From positions 1 through 64,000 of the forward strand of contig JAJEHI010000158.1 in the NCBI GenBank assembly GCA_022823775.1: 64,000 nt of DNA. Reading direction: 5' to 3'. The DNA comes from Defluviicoccus sp. GTDB taxonomy: Bacteria; Pseudomonadota; Alphaproteobacteria; MPNO01. Below the pieces are notes generated by a model that saw only the letters and a list, made by a program, of their open reading frames with translations, was not told where the DNA came from and ran no database searches. The translations under genes were made by a program, and so were the position numbers. Below, in pieces: positions 21,453-28,369 of the stretch (positions are counted from its first letter, which is position 1; the number at the start of each line of letters is the position of its first letter).

Positions 21453-24400
21453 ATGCCCCACGCCGATTTCGTCCATCTCAGGGTCCACACGCCCTATTCG
21501 CTGTCCGAGGGGGCGATCAAGATCGCCGATCTCGTGAAGCTCTGCGTCGACGAGGCCATGCCGGCCGTGGCGGTGACCGACACCAACAATCTCTTCGGCG
21601 CGCTCGAATTCGCGATGGCGGCTGCCGCGGAGGGGATTCAGCCGATAATCGGCTGTCAGATCGCGGTCGCCCCGATGGAAGCGGATGCCGGGTCACGGGC
21701 GAACGGCCGCATGGGCGCCCGTTCCGGACGCAAGGAAAGACGCGATTTCCTGGTCCTTCTGGTGCAGGACGAGGAGGGATACCGGAACCTCATGGCGCTG
21801 GTGTCGAAGGCGTTCCTGGAATCCGAGGCTGGCGATCCGCACGTTTCTTTCCGGGATGTCGCTCTGCACGCATCGGGGCTGATGGCGCTTACCGCCGGCG
21901 CTTCCGGCGCGCTCGGCCGGCTTCTCGCGGACGGGCAGGTGCAGAAGGCGAGCGGCGCGCTCCAACAACTCCGGGACGCGTTTCCGGGCCGGCTTTATGT
22001 CGAGCTCACCCGCCACGGCGAGGAGATCGAACGGCGCATAGAGGACGACCTGATCGACCTCGCCATGACCCACGACCTGCCCCTCGTGGCGACCAACGAG
22101 GCCTATTTCGCGGATGCCTCCATGCACGAAGCGCATGACGCGCTTCTCTGCATCGCCCAAGGCACCCACGTCGCCGAACAGGAACGGCGTCGTCTGACGA
22201 CGGACCACCGTTTCCGCGGCGCGGCGGAAATGCGCGCGCTGTTCGCCGATTTGCCGGAGGCGCTGGATAACACGCTGGCCATCGCCAGGCGCTGCGCGTT
22301 CATGCCCGAACCGCGCGAGCCCATCCTCCCGCGCTTCGAGACCTCGCGGGGAGAAGCCGAGGCGGAGGCCTTGACCGCCGCCGCGCGGGCGGGCCTCGAA
22401 GCGCGTCTCGAAGCGAGCGTCTATCCGGCGGACGCGACGGCCGAAGAGCGGGAAGACGCGGCGAAGCCCTATCGCGAGCGTCTGGCTTTCGAGCTCCGGA
22501 CCATCATCGACATGGGCTTTCCGGGCTACTTCCTGATCGTCGCCGATTTCATCCAGTGGGCCAAGAAACAGGGGATTCCCGTCGGTCCCGGCCGCGGTTC
22601 GGGCGCGGGGTCGGTGGTTGCCTGGGCGCTCACCATCACCGACCTCGACCCGCTGCGCTTCGGGCTCCTCTTCGAGCGTTTCCTGAACCCGGACCGGGTG
22701 TCCATGCCCGACTTCGACATCGATTTCTGCCAGGACCGCCGGGACGAGGTGATCCGCTACGTCCAGGACAAGTACGGCGCCGACCGGGTGGCCCAGATCG
22801 TCACCTTCGGGACGCTGCAGGCGCGCGCCGCGATCCGCGACGTGGGGCGCGTTCTCGGCATGCCGTACGGCCAGGTCGACCGGATTTCGAAGCTGGTGCC
22901 GTTCAACCCCGCGCACCCGCCGACCCTCGCCGAAGCGCTCGAGAAGGAACCGCAGCTGAGGGAAATCCGCGCCGGCGACGAACAGGTGGCGAAACTGCTC
23001 GATCTTGCGATGGCGCTGGAAGGCCTCTACCGCCACACATCGACCCATGCGGCCGGCGTGGTCATCGGCGACCGGCCGCTGACCGACCTCGTCCCGCTCT
23101 ACCGGGACCCGCGCTCGGACCTCCCGGCGACCCAGTTCTCGATGAAGTACGCCGAGCTCTCGGGCCTGGTGAAATTCGACTTCCTGGGTCTCAAGACGCT
23201 GACCGTTCTTCACCGCGCGCTCGAGCGAATGCCGGAGAACGCGCGGCCCGACCTGCTCGCCCTGCCGCTCGACGACGGAAAGACCTACGACATGCTCGGC
23301 CGCGGCGACACGGCGGGCGTGTTCCAGATGGAAAGCGCGGGGATGCGCGACGCGTTGCGCCAGATGAAGCCCGACAGCTTCGGAGACCTCATCGCGCTCG
23401 TCGCCCTCTACCGTCCCGGGCCGATGGACAATATCCCGCGCTACAACGGCTGCAAGCACGGCCACGAGCAGCCGGATTACCTGCATCCCGACCTGGAAGA
23501 CATCCTCCGCGAGACGTTCGGGGTGATCATCTACCAGGAACAGGTCATGCAGATCGCCCAGAAGCTCTCGGGCTTCAGCCTCGCCCGGGCCGACCTGCTG
23601 CGGCGTGCGATGGGCAAGAAGATCCAGGCCGAAATGGATGCCCAGCGCGATGCCTTCGTCGACGGCGCAGTCGCCCGCGGGGTGGACGAGGCGAAAGCGA
23701 GGCAGATCTTCGATCAGGTGGACAAGTTCGCCGGCTACGGCTTCAACAAGTCCCACGCGGCGGCCTATGCGCTGATCGCCTATCAGACAGCCTGGCTCAA
23801 GGCCAACCACCCGGTGGAATTCTTCGCCGCGCTGATGACCATGGATCTCGGCAACACCGACAAGCTCGCGGCGATCCGCCAGGAACTCCAGAGGCTGGAC
23901 ATCCCCTTGCTGCCGCCCGACGTCAACCGCTCGGAGGCGACATTCGCCGTCGAGGTCGTTCGCAACGGCAACGAGACGAAGGCGATCCGATACGCGCTCG
24001 CGGCAATCCGGAGGGTCGGCGAACAGGCGATGGCCGATCTCGCGGACGAACGCCGGTCCGGCGGCCCCTTCGAGGACGAGTTCGATTTCGCCCAACGGCT
24101 CGGCGGGGTGCTCGCGAACCGCCAACAGCTCGAAAACCTGGTTCGCGCCGGCGCGCTCGACTCCCTGAACCCCAACCGGCGACAGGTCTTCGAAACCATC
24201 GACCGCCTCGTCCGTCTCGGCCAGGCAGCCGCTCAGGACCGGGAAAGCAACCAGACGAGCCTCTTCGGGAAAAACGGGGAAGGGATGCCGCCCGTCGAGA
24301 CGCGCCGCCCGGATGTCGACGACTGGACCGCGATGGAACGCCTCGACCACGAGTTCGATGCGGTCGGGTTCTATCTCTCCGCCCATCCCCTGGACGCGTA

Positions 24401-24947
24401 CGAACGCCGGCTGAAACGCCTTGGCGCGGTCCCGTACGGCGAGATCGCGCGCGGCGGGCGGGCGGGGACCTGCAAGCTCGCCGGGATCGTCGCGTCGCGG
24501 CAGGAACGCACTTCGTCGAAGGGAAGCCGGTTCGCTTATGTCGGCCTCACCGACTCGTCCGGTTCTTTCGAGGTCGTGGTGTTCAGCGACCTTCTCGTCC
24601 AGTCGCGCGACCTGCTGGACACCAACGGCCGGGTGCTCATCTCCGCCGAGTCGCGCGCGGAGGGGGACGGGGTCCGGCTGATCGCGCAACGCATCGAGCC
24701 GCTCGATCCGGCGATCGAGGGGATGGAGACGGGCCTGCTGGTGCGGGTGACCGATCCTGCCTGCCTCGAAACCCTCAAGTCCGAGATCGCCGGGTGGAAG
24801 CGGGGACGCGGCCGGGTCAGCCTGGTGATCGACATCGAAAGCGAACGGGAAGTCGAATTGAAGCTCCCCGAACGCTACAGCGTGCCGGCGGACGGCTTGC
24901 CGGCGCTCGGGGCGCTGGCCGGCGTCGGCGAAATCAGCGAAATCTGA
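21453..24947 (+). CDS. dnaE: DNA polymerase III subunit alpha
   Basis: Replicative polymerase catalytic subunit, 1164 residues, matching the usual DnaE length. It has an N-terminal PHP domain (FVHLRVHTPYSLSEGAIKI from residue 6), the polymerase palm with the catalytic acidic motif PDFDIDFCQDRRDEVIRYV at about residues 416-434, and GPGRGSGAGSVVAWAL before it. The fingers, beta-clamp-binding region (QTSLF near residue 936) and C-terminal OB fold follow. The ATG at 21453 puts the PHP domain at the expected place. An in-frame start 60 bases earlier adds residues that look unrelated. Confidence 0.97.
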   Translation: MPHADFVHLRVHTPYSLSEGAIKIADLVKLCVDEAMPAVAVTDTNNLFGALEFAMAAAAEGIQPIIGCQIAVAPMEADAGSRANGRMGARSGRKERRDFLVLLVQDEEGYRNLMALVSKAFLESEAGDPHVSFRDVALHASGLMALTAGASGALGRLLADGQVQKASGALQQLRDAFPGRLYVELTRHGEEIERRIEDDLIDLAMTHDLPLVATNEAYFADASMHEAHDALLCIAQGTHVAEQERRRLTTDHRFRGAAEMRALFADLPEALDNTLAIARRCAFMPEPREPILPRFETSRGEAEAEALTAAARAGLEARLEASVYPADATAEEREDAAKPYRERLAFELRTIIDMGFPGYFLIVADFIQWAKKQGIPVGPGRGSGAGSVVAWALTITDLDPLRFGLLFERFLNPDRVSMPDFDIDFCQDRRDEVIRYVQDKYGADRVAQIVTFGTLQARAAIRDVGRVLGMPYGQVDRISKLVPFNPAHPPTLAEALEKEPQLREIRAGDEQVAKLLDLAMALEGLYRHTSTHAAGVVIGDRPLTDLVPLYRDPRSDLPATQFSMKYAELSGLVKFDFLGLKTLTVLHRALERMPENARPDLLALPLDDGKTYDMLGRGDTAGVFQMESAGMRDALRQMKPDSFGDLIALVALYRPGPMDNIPRYNGCKHGHEQPDYLHPDLEDILRETFGVIIYQEQVMQIAQKLSGFSLARADLLRRAMGKKIQAEMDAQRDAFVDGAVARGVDEAKARQIFDQVDKFAGYGFNKSHAAAYALIAYQTAWLKANHPVEFFAALMTMDLGNTDKLAAIRQELQRLDIPLLPPDVNRSEATFAVEVVRNGNETKAIRYALAAIRRVGEQAMADLADERRSGGPFEDEFDFAQRLGGVLANRQQLENLVRAGALDSLNPNRRQVFETIDRLVRLGQAAAQDRESNQTSLFGKNGEGMPPVETRRPDVDDWTAMERLDHEFDAVGFYLSAHPLDAYERRLKRLGAVPYGEIARGGRAGTCKLAGIVASRQERTSSKGSRFAYVGLTDSSGSFEVVVFSDLLVQSRDLLDTNGRVLISAESRAEGDGVRLIAQRIEPLDPAIEGMETGLLVRVTDPACLETLKSEIAGWKRGRGRVSLVIDIESEREVELKLPERYSVPADGLPALGALAGVGEISEI

Positions 24948-24980
24948 GGCGGGGCGGCGCGACGGAGACCCCGATTTCGC

Positions 24981-25009
24981 TTGCGAACCGGACCCGGCGG
25001 GTTTATCAC
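24981..25009 (+). promoter_or_regulatory. Candidate rpsB promoter
   Basis: TTGCGA (24981-24986) and TATCAC (25004-25009) are spaced by 17 bases. Transcription would begin near 25016, giving a leader of about 125 bases that contains both hairpins described below. It lies between the dnaE stop and rpsB. Confidence 0.55.
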
Positions 25010-25040
25010 AACCGCGCTTCGTAGAACGCACGCGGGCACG

Positions 25041-25060
25041 GGAAGGCGGGACCGCCTTCC
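25041..25060 (+). promoter_or_regulatory. Leader hairpin 1 upstream of rpsB
   Basis: GGAAGGCGG at 25041-25049 is repeated inverted as CCGCCTTCC at 25052-25060. In RNA this gives a 7-8 pair stem with a small GC-rich loop. No T-run follows, so it is not a simple terminator. Confidence 0.5.
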
Positions 25061-25068
25061 ATCCGGTC

Positions 25069-25101
25069 GGCGGAGGAAACGGCCGCATCGTTTCCTCCGC
25101 C
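25069..25101 (+). promoter_or_regulatory. Leader hairpin 2 upstream of rpsB
   Basis: A perfect 13-base-pair inverted repeat, arms 25069-25081 and 25089-25101, with a 7-base loop GCCGCAT. It ends 40 bases before the rpsB ATG and has no T-run. Possible roles are binding of ribosomal protein S2 for autoregulation or mRNA stabilisation. This is inference from position. Confidence 0.55.
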
Positions 25102-25141
25102 GCACGCCCGCGGAGGGAAAACCGGACAAGGAAAAACGATC

Positions 25142-26041
25142 ATGGCAATGCCCGAGTTCACCATGCGCCAACTGCTGGAGGCCGGCGTCCATTTCGGCCA
25201 CCACACGAAGCGCTGGAACCCCAAGATGTCGCCTTACATCTTCGGCGTCAGGAACGGAATCCACATCATCGACCTGCAACAGACGATGCCGATGCTTTAT
25301 GCGGCGTTGTCCGCGGTTCGCGAAGTCACGGCGGCGGGCGGACGGATACTGTTCGTCGGAACGAAGCGTCAGGCGAGCGACCTGATCGCGGATGCCGCGG
25401 GACGTTGCGGCCAGTACTTCGTCAACCACCGCTGGCTCGGCGGGACCCTGACCAACTGGAAGACCATCACCGCGTCGATCCAGCGCCTGCGCGATCTCGA
25501 CGAGACCCTCGATACCGAGGAGAGCGGGCTGACCAAGAAGGAACTTCTGGGCCTTACCCGCGAGCGGGAAAAACTCCAGCGCGCGCTGGGCGGCATCAAG
25601 GAAATGGGCGGCCTTCCCGACATCCTGTTCGTCGTCGACACGAACAAGGAAGCGATCGCGATCAAGGAGGCGAAGAAGCTCAACATCCCGGTGGTGGGCA
25701 TCATCGACAGCAACTCCGACCCGGACGGCATCTCGTACGCGATTCCCGGGAACGACGACGCGATTCGCTCGATCGCGCTGTATTGCGACCTCGTCTCCAG
25801 GGCGGTGCTCGACGGCCTGCAGCAGGAAGCGATCGCGAGCGGCAGCGACATCGGCGAATCGGAGGAGGCGCCCGTCGAGGACCTCCCGGAGGGTGTCGAG
25901 GCGCAAGGCGAGAGCGAGCCTACGGAAGCTTCGGAGACCGGAGACGCCGAGCCGGCGCCCGAGCCCGAGCCCGTTACTGAAGCCGGGGACCCGGCGGCCG
26001 AGCCCGCCGCGGCGGTGGAGGAGGGTGCGGCCCCCGCCTGA
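25142..26041 (+). CDS. rpsB: 30S ribosomal protein S2
   Basis: Small-subunit protein needed for binding of S1 and mRNA docking. The protein has 299 residues. The core (1-~235) starts [22 protein letters not shown] and carries the expected [11 protein letters not shown] segment. Residues ~238-299 form an acidic, Glu/Pro/Ala-rich tail absent from E. coli S2 (241 residues). Such tails are common in alphaproteobacterial S2. An AAGGA site precedes the ATG. tsf follows after 78 bases. Confidence 0.97.
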
Positions 26042-26119: not shown

Positions 26120-27040
26120 ATGGCGCAGATTACCGCGGCCCTGGTCAAGACGCTTCGCGACAAGACCGGCGCCGGCATGATGGATTGCAAGAAGGCCCTG
26201 ACCGAGGCGGCGGGAGATATCGACGACGCGGTCGACTGGCTGCGCAAGAACGGACTCGCCGCGGCGGCCAAGAAAGCCGGGCGCGTCGCCGCGGAAGGTT
26301 TGGTCGCGGTCGCTACCGAGGGCAACCGGGGCGCGGTGGTCGAGGTCAACGCCGAGACGGATTTCGTCGGCCGCAACGAAGAGTTCCAGAATTTCGTGCG
26401 GGACGTGGCCGTTATCGCGCTGCGGACGGACGGTTCGGTCGATGCCTTGGGCGAGGCCGCAATGGGCGAGGGGACGGTCGCTTCCCAACTCACCGACCTG
26501 ATCGCCAAGATCGGCGAAAACATGTCGATACGGCGCGTCGAGCGGCTTTCGGTCGCAAGCGGTGCGGTGGGCACCTACGTTCACAACAGCGTCGCGCCGG
26601 GGCTCGGGCGAATCGGAGTGCTGGTCGGTCTCGAATCGCCGGACGGCTCGGAGCGCCTCGACGGGTTCGCGCGCCAGCTTGCGATGCACGTGGCGGCGGC
26701 AAGCCCGCAGTGGACCTGGATCGAGGCCATCGACCCTGCCTCGCTCGACCGCGAGCGGGCGGTATTGACCGAGCAGGCGCGCGCCAGCGGGCGGCCGGAC
26801 AATATCGTCGAGAAGATGGTCGAGGGCCGGCTGAAGAAGTTCTACGAAGAGTCGGTCCTCCTGGAGCAGACATTCGTCATCGACGGCGAATCCAAGGTTT
26901 CCAAGGCTATCGAGGCCCTCGCCGGCGACATCGATGCGCCGGTGTCGGTGACCGGCTTTCATCGCTTCATGCTGGGCGAGGGCATCGAGAAGAAGGAAGA
27001 CGATTTCGCGGCCGAGGTGGCGGCAACGGCCGGCGTCTGA
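26120..27040 (+). CDS. tsf: Elongation factor Ts
   Basis: Nucleotide exchange factor for EF-Tu. The protein has 306 residues. The N-terminal [18 protein letters not shown] block (about 10-27) and [10 protein letters not shown] (about 80-89), which contacts EF-Tu, are intact. An AAGAGGA ribosome site lies just upstream. It is probably co-transcribed with rpsB. Confidence 0.97.
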
Positions 27041-27825: not shown

Positions 27826-28369
27826 AATAGCCGATATCGAAAGGCGGATGAACGGCGCCGTCGAGGCGCTCCGGCGCGAATTCGCGGGACTCCGGACGGG
27901 CCGGGCCTCGGCCGCCCTTCTTGAGCCGCTGACCGTCGAGGCCTATGGCAGCAAGATGCCGATAAACCAGGTCGGAACCATCGGGGTTCCGGACCCGAGG
28001 ATGCTGACCGTCCAGGTGTGGGATCAAAGCCAGGTCGGCGCGGTCGAAAAGGCGATTCGCGATTCGGGTCTCGGGCTCAATCCCCAGACCGAAGGCAACG
28101 TGATCAGGGTTCCGATCCCGCAACTCACCGAGGAACGCCGCGTCGAGCTCACCAAGGTCGCGAACAAATATGCCGAACAGGCCCGGGTCGCGGTCCGCAA
28201 CGTCCGGCGCGACGGCATCGACCGGTTCAGAAAAATGGAAAAAGGCGGCGAGATTTCGCAAGACGAACAGCGCGCCTGGTCGACCGAAATCCAGGAGCTG
28301 ACGGACACGACCGTCGCCGAGATCGACGAGGCGCTGTCCGTCAAGGAGGCGGAGATTCTACAGGTTTGA
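27812..28369 (+). CDS. frr: Ribosome recycling factor
   Basis: Splits post-termination ribosomes together with EF-G. It has 185 residues, the standard length. The family core [21 protein letters not shown] (about 27-47) and the C-terminal helical segment [13 protein letters not shown] are present. GTG start inside pyrH. uppS follows after 5 bases. Confidence 0.97.

Follow-up and report, generated by a model that had tools for sequence, protein, structure and literature searches.

The leader of rpsB in a Defluviicoccus genome carries the rpsB motif, a conserved RNA that probably serves autoregulation by ribosomal protein S2

Introduction

Ribosomal proteins such as S15, L20 and S6:S18 repress their own messages through leader folds, and an S2 autoregulatory leader of E. 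coli rpsB-tsf was reportedly described by Aseev et al. in 2008. In the stretch of Defluviicoccus sp. DNA analysed here (the window, 64 kb in length), two consecutive perfect hairpins lie in the leader between dnaE, which ends at 24947, and rpsB, raising the question of what RNA they belong to and what it does. An earlier note on this DNA, made from the sequence alone, suggested an alphaproteobacterial S2-binding or stability element distinct from that of E. coli. Here, we find a real and conserved leader of a known kind, so that the type is not new, and we ask how far its anatomy supports control by S2.

Results

Two hairpins are the side arms of a larger leader fold

Both inverted repeats are exact, as first described; the first has the reported arm length of 9 nt (25041-25049/25052-25060), whereas the second measures 14 nt and not 13 (25068-25081/25089-25102). 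Because a 2-nt loop is impossible in RNA, the first hairpin (P2) is drawn with 8 bp and a GGAC loop, while the second (P3), with 14 bp and one G-U pair, is the sole perfect stem of at least 12 bp (loop 3-12) within the window, six mononucleotide shuffles of which contained 0 or 1 such stem each. The 151-nt leader folds at -69.5 kcal/mol compared to a shuffled mean of -57.6 kcal/mol (z -3.0; 0/200 shuffles as good), in a minimum-energy structure that lacks the pseudoknot described below, pseudoknots being beyond the folding program. A scan of the leader returned no terminator-like site.

These hairpins are only two arms within an element of approximately 25027-25127, directly upstream of the rpsB ATG at 25142, and the initial reading of the hairpins alone passed over its conserved parts, a stem termed P1 and a pseudoknot. 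P1 closes the junction carrying P2 and P3 through pairs C25031-C25037/G25106-G25112, followed outwards by a bulged A25030, the pair C25029-G25113, a G25028.A25114 mismatch and a terminal pair C25027-G25115. The 3′ strand of the pseudoknot ends 1 nt before AAGGA and 15 nt before AUG. The features of the locus are as follows (P1 nucleotides in the list and below are also given without their leading 25, as in A30 for A25030).

24981 to 25009, + strand: promoter; -35 TTGCGA (24981-24986), 17-nt spacer, -10 TATCAC (25004-25009), with a predicted start at ~25016
25027 to 25037, + strand: P1 5′ strand; C27, N28 (mismatch), C29, bulged A30, C31-C37, from the RF01815 alignment, our own fold and covariation
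25041 to 25060, + strand: P2 hairpin; 8 bp (25041-25048/25053-25060), GGAC loop, the first hairpin of the earlier note
25062 to 25067, + strand: pseudoknot 5′ strand UCCGGU at the P2/P3 junction, pairing with 25121-25126, from sequence and relatives' covariation
25068 to 25102, + strand: P3 hairpin; 14 bp plus one G-U pair (25068-25082/25088-25102), the second hairpin of the earlier note
25106 to 25116, + strand: P1 3′ strand with conserved GGAGG (25112-25116), from the RF01815 alignment and relatives' leaders
25121 to 25126, + strand: pseudoknot 3′ strand ACCGGA, pairing with 25062-25067, from relatives' covariation
25128 to 25132, + strand: Shine-Dalgarno-like AAGGA, 9 nt before AUG, from sequence
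25142 to 26041, + strand: rpsB, ribosomal protein S2 (299 aa), presumed to be both the target gene and its regulator (TIGR01011, 326 bits, cut-off 76.3)
26120 to 27040, + strand: tsf, elongation factor Ts, second gene of the operon (TIGR00116, 303.3 bits, cut-off 104.05)

Several other candidates were considered and set aside. An alternative switch, in which the 3′ arm of P3 (25091-25100, with CCUCC) would pair with GCGGAGGGAA (25110-25119), was rejected as CCUCC is not kept in the congeners L032-L034. Matches to microRNA and Streptomyces RNA families were low-scoring hits to a strong hairpin, and a raiA match at 27932-28047 (15.3 bits, cut-off 101.3) is weak and was taken as chance.

The element is an rpsB motif that scores below the Rfam cut-off

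An Rfam search, one of the checks proposed in the earlier note, identified the leader element as the "rpsB motif" (RF01815; Meyer et al. 2009), with a full-length match at 25027-25139 (33.9 bits, E 1e-3 in 10 kb). This score falls under the gathering cut-off of 40 bits, a limit for automatic inclusion rather than a statement about anatomy, and routine Rfam annotation would therefore miss the site. Across the 4.8-Mb genome the window site is the best match and the next reaches 14.5 bits, leaving a single copy, before rpsB. When the search was extended to 61 genomes (the genome itself plus relatives), 32 gave a match with E of at most 1 and just 7 of the 61 passed the cut-off, which is accordingly strict for this group and suggests that many alphaproteobacterial members of RF01815 are hidden by it.

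In the description by Meyer et al. (2009; PMC2704228), P1 is one of three stems meeting at a junction, the other two, P2 and P3, are variable, and a previously unidentified pseudoknot joins J2/3 to a 3′ extension after P1; the authors connect the motif with the region upstream of rpsB by which S2 exerts its control in E. coli. All four parts (P1, variable P2 and P3 at the junction, and the pseudoknot between J2/3 and the 3′ extension) are present here. The window element shares with RF01815 (PMC2704228) its place before rpsB and the conserved letters CAC-A-C, UCCGGU and AACCGG, and departs from it in its 33.9-bit score, in a C after UCCGGU and in hairpins longer than those of many relatives; the C and the long hairpins may lie behind the low score. 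In the window's genus this C is paired within P3, whereas 112 of 127 leaders have the usual G.

To score the site independently of its own genus, we used a covariance model (R1) built from 28 leaders (alignment A2, below) with that genus left out, which gave the window site 42.4 bits (E 8.9e-9, cmsearch). In an own-genome search with R1, in which 150 of 8628 candidates were scored and the window site was not among them, the best other place reached 18.5 bits.

Compensatory changes support P1 among relatives

The leader sample comprised 160 rpsB upstream regions, of which 20 were order-level (20 of 22 matches kept; L051 and L052 dropped as fragments) and 140 class-level (without the fragments G072 and G119 and without G000 and G006, which the order set already contained, but with the second, divergent rpsB of G098). 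Anchors were set by sequence patterns and not by pairing. Anchor scores were passed by 144 of 160 regions, compared to a mean of 19 and a maximum of 24 of 160 shuffled upstreams, in which 51% of P1 cells were paired. An anchored motif with at least 5 of the 6 core P1 pairs was recovered in 127 of 160 regions (20/20 order-level, 107/140 class-level) and not in the remaining 33. Several of these 33 are anchoring failures and others, small divergent genomes, may lack the motif, so that 127 reflects what this procedure recovers and should not be read as a census.

Within the core of P1, 94% of cells were paired in register, falling to 35-59% when slid by 1-3. Two-sided compensated cells numbered 218 (mean 67 and maximum 87 over 500 permutations) and unpaired cells 86 (mean 268, minimum 245), such that the covariation check suggested for relatives' rpsB leaders turned up compensatory changes in abundance. 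Alignment A2 was made from 32 compact leaders without the window's genus and held 28 sequences; L104, L125, L132 and L180 were left out because automatic 5′ anchors gave them oddly short or different stretches. It was 98.1% paired, with 42 two-sided changes against a shuffle mean of 11.1 (0/500 as high). Plain MAFFT alignments (A1, which held the truncated L037, and A3) misalign P2 and P3 and were kept out of the counts.

The bulged A30 is present in 127 of 127 leaders, a count biased by the anchor pattern, which contains that A. Position 28/114 is mostly a non-standard pair (A.A in 44, G.A in 41, A.C in 21 and U.C in 12 of 127 leaders), and its two sides are associated (chi-square p 5e-9, for A/G/U vs A/C only in 121 of 127 leaders and with relatedness ignored). 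This covarying position and the conserved A30 offer a concrete target for locating S2 binding.

The pseudoknot is conserved and the hairpins vary

In alignment A2 the pseudoknot letters are nearly fixed and most pairs invariant; leaders were therefore anchored on GGMGG-N-AA, without pseudoknot letters, an anchor passed by 136 of 160 upstream regions. CCGG forms the 3′ side in 110 leaders, every one of which (110/110) has the upstream complement CCGGU. Another 3′ side is present in 26, and the exactly altered complement accompanies it in 10 (2.4 expected); the consensus G follows that complement in 9 of these 10. Altered pairs include UCCAGU/ACUGGA, UCUGGU/ACCAGA and UCCGAU/AUCGGA, with UUCGGU/ACCGAA seen in an alignment. 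The exact complement is absent from 16 of the 26; by our reading 11 of these are mis-registered, two (L132, L142) pair via G-U, and three (L105, L136, L186) are without a partner. From the end of the pseudoknot to AUG the relatives' leaders have a median of 15 nt, a conserved distance.

P2 and P3 behave differently. A stem of at least 5 bp occupies the P2 place in 72% of 116 leaders (27% of shuffles) and the P3 place in 54% of 125 leaders (24% of shuffles), with length and sequence free to vary among relatives. The two hairpins are variable scaffolding and show the least conservation within a known autoregulatory RNA. This pattern bears on the proposal that the hairpins are a 5′ stability element or RNase barrier of the mRNA that does not bind S2. 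P2 and P3 are indeed unusually strong here and near the predicted 5′ end, but what is conserved at a fixed place before rpsB is P1, the A bulge, GGAGG and the pseudoknot and not the freely varying hairpins, and a pure stability hairpin would have no need of a compensated pseudoknot; we consider a stability role improbable. The fold of the S2 leader, its conservation and its place are direct observations of this analysis.

The element is most likely transcribed whole and travels with rpsB

The earlier note placed a good promoter at 24981-25009. Its TTGCGA/TATCAC boxes are identical in three congeners (L032, L033, L034), which favours the assignment, but a consensus scan found no promoter before rpsB and its strength is only moderate. 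More broadly, 51 of 143 leaders carry TAT[CA]A in the 50 nt preceding P1, most often 16-23 nt ahead of it, where shuffles gave 17.3 on average and 28 at most; in a control region the count was 13 of 142. In Magnetospirillum gryphiswaldense, the mapped starts are at 1,038,568 and 1,038,569 (PMC9549626), and the RF01815 match there begins at 1,038,575, 6-7 nt after them. With a promoter upstream of the element and a Magnetospirillum start before the motif, the element is most likely transcribed whole, and the evidence runs against a transcription start downstream of 25101, which the earlier note had named as grounds for doubt.

Gene neighbourhood separates the element from dnaE. In all 30 RF01815 loci the next gene is rpsB. 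A dnaE gene was found upstream in 24 of them, and two of the remaining six (L004, L013) have little sequence on that side. In E. coli, rpsB is preceded by map, encoded on the opposite strand; the element goes with rpsB. Strong hairpins between two genes might suggest a transcription attenuator or terminator, acting on dnaE or rpsB; this is very unlikely given the linkage to rpsB and not to dnaE and the absence of a terminator-like site.

On the dnaE side, a 9-bp perfect inverted repeat (AGCGAAATC/GATTTCGCT, 24936-24981) brackets the dnaE stop codon, its 3′ arm overlapping the beginning of the rpsB -35 box; the congeners L032-L034, but not L035, have a similar hairpin. A 1131-codon open frame (21693-25088, - strand) runs antisense to dnaE into the rpsB leader and is most likely a high-GC artefact.

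Alpha- and gammaproteobacterial S2 leaders share a skeleton

The E. coli rpsB leader (L193 213-348, tff/t44) matches Rfam RF00127 (t44) with 83.5 bits. No RF00127 match was found in the window leader at E up to 5, and model R1 reaches the E. coli leader weakly (15.2 bits, E 0.037). Nonetheless, the two leaders have in common a CNCA bulge (CACA in E. coli), P1, GGAGG, three nucleotides (CAU in E. coli), AACC (within AACCCC in E. coli), all in the same order, a pseudoknot and the operon rpsB-tsf; they differ in the pseudoknot letters, which are UGGGGU/ACCCCA in E. coli with the pairs compensated. Since the E. coli leader has the same skeleton, the window element is the alphaproteobacterial form of the E. 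coli element. The supposition that it differs from the E. coli structure was mistaken, down to the compensated pseudoknot, and of the two roles first suggested S2 binding is the better supported. By contrast, the S15, L20 and S6:S18 leaders, which the element would resemble in its mode of action, have different folds and genes, and the window element is not a member of those classes.

RF00127 and RF01815 are separate Rfam families with no common clan, both typed as sRNA genes, and one paper counts them as two distinct RNAs that occur within the same genomes (PMC5955585). That type ('Gene; sRNA') and the GenBank label of E. coli t44/tff as a putative small RNA would fit a free-standing small RNA acting on other messages, a reading that we hold to be highly improbable for an element that extends into the rpsB ribosome site with a conserved spacing to AUG, has no terminator and occurs as one genome copy, before rpsB; a leader fragment could persist as a by-product. 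The comparison suggests one common core for the alpha- and gammaproteobacterial S2 leaders, which Rfam keeps apart and labels as small RNA genes. Extending this, we offer as an evenly balanced proposal that the recognition site for S2 (or S2-S1) is that shared core (bulged A30 between C-G pairs, covarying 28/114, GGAGG and the pseudoknot), that RF00127 and RF01815 are one ancestral autoregulator under two names, and that P2/P3 are dispensable.

Proposed S2 autoregulation

We propose, with a probability of roughly 85%, that the leader is the alphaproteobacterial S2 autoregulatory element, to which surplus S2, probably with S1, would bind to repress rpsB-tsf translation. Transcription would begin near 25016, and the mRNA would form P1 bearing P2 and P3 as side hairpins. 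The pseudoknot would lock the junction between P2 and P3 to the sequence flanking P1 on its 3′ side, and would end 1 nt short of the Shine-Dalgarno sequence. By analogy with E. coli, surplus S2, probably together with S1, may then bind the conserved core (bulged A, mismatch, GGAGG and pseudoknot) and stabilise the fold beside the ribosome site, which would block 30S subunit loading on rpsB and lower the output of S2 and of downstream Ts.

The ideas that S2 binds, that S1 takes part and that translation is repressed are carried over here from E. coli work. A 2024 review (PMC10931766) states that in E. coli S2 represses rpsB-tsf translation with S1 needed for effective repression, that the ribosome site lies outside the operator, and that control can be abolished by deleting a conserved upstream bulge; it terms the mechanistic details unclear. 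The deleted bulge would, we infer, correspond to A30. The anatomy seen here is compatible with the E. coli account in that the core ends just before the Shine-Dalgarno sequence, and S1 is encoded in the genome. A literature search, with many subscription papers out of reach, found no test of the rpsB motif in an alphaproteobacterium.

Further observations on S2

The second rpsB of G098 (L192, on contig 103) is divergent, its product having 44% identity to the window's S2; the rpsB motif was not found upstream of it, and it may be an organelle-like or contaminant sequence. The S2 protein of the window itself carries a C-terminal extension of ~70 residues rich in Glu, Ala and Pro (25823-26038), beyond residue 227, where the TIGR01011 match stops.
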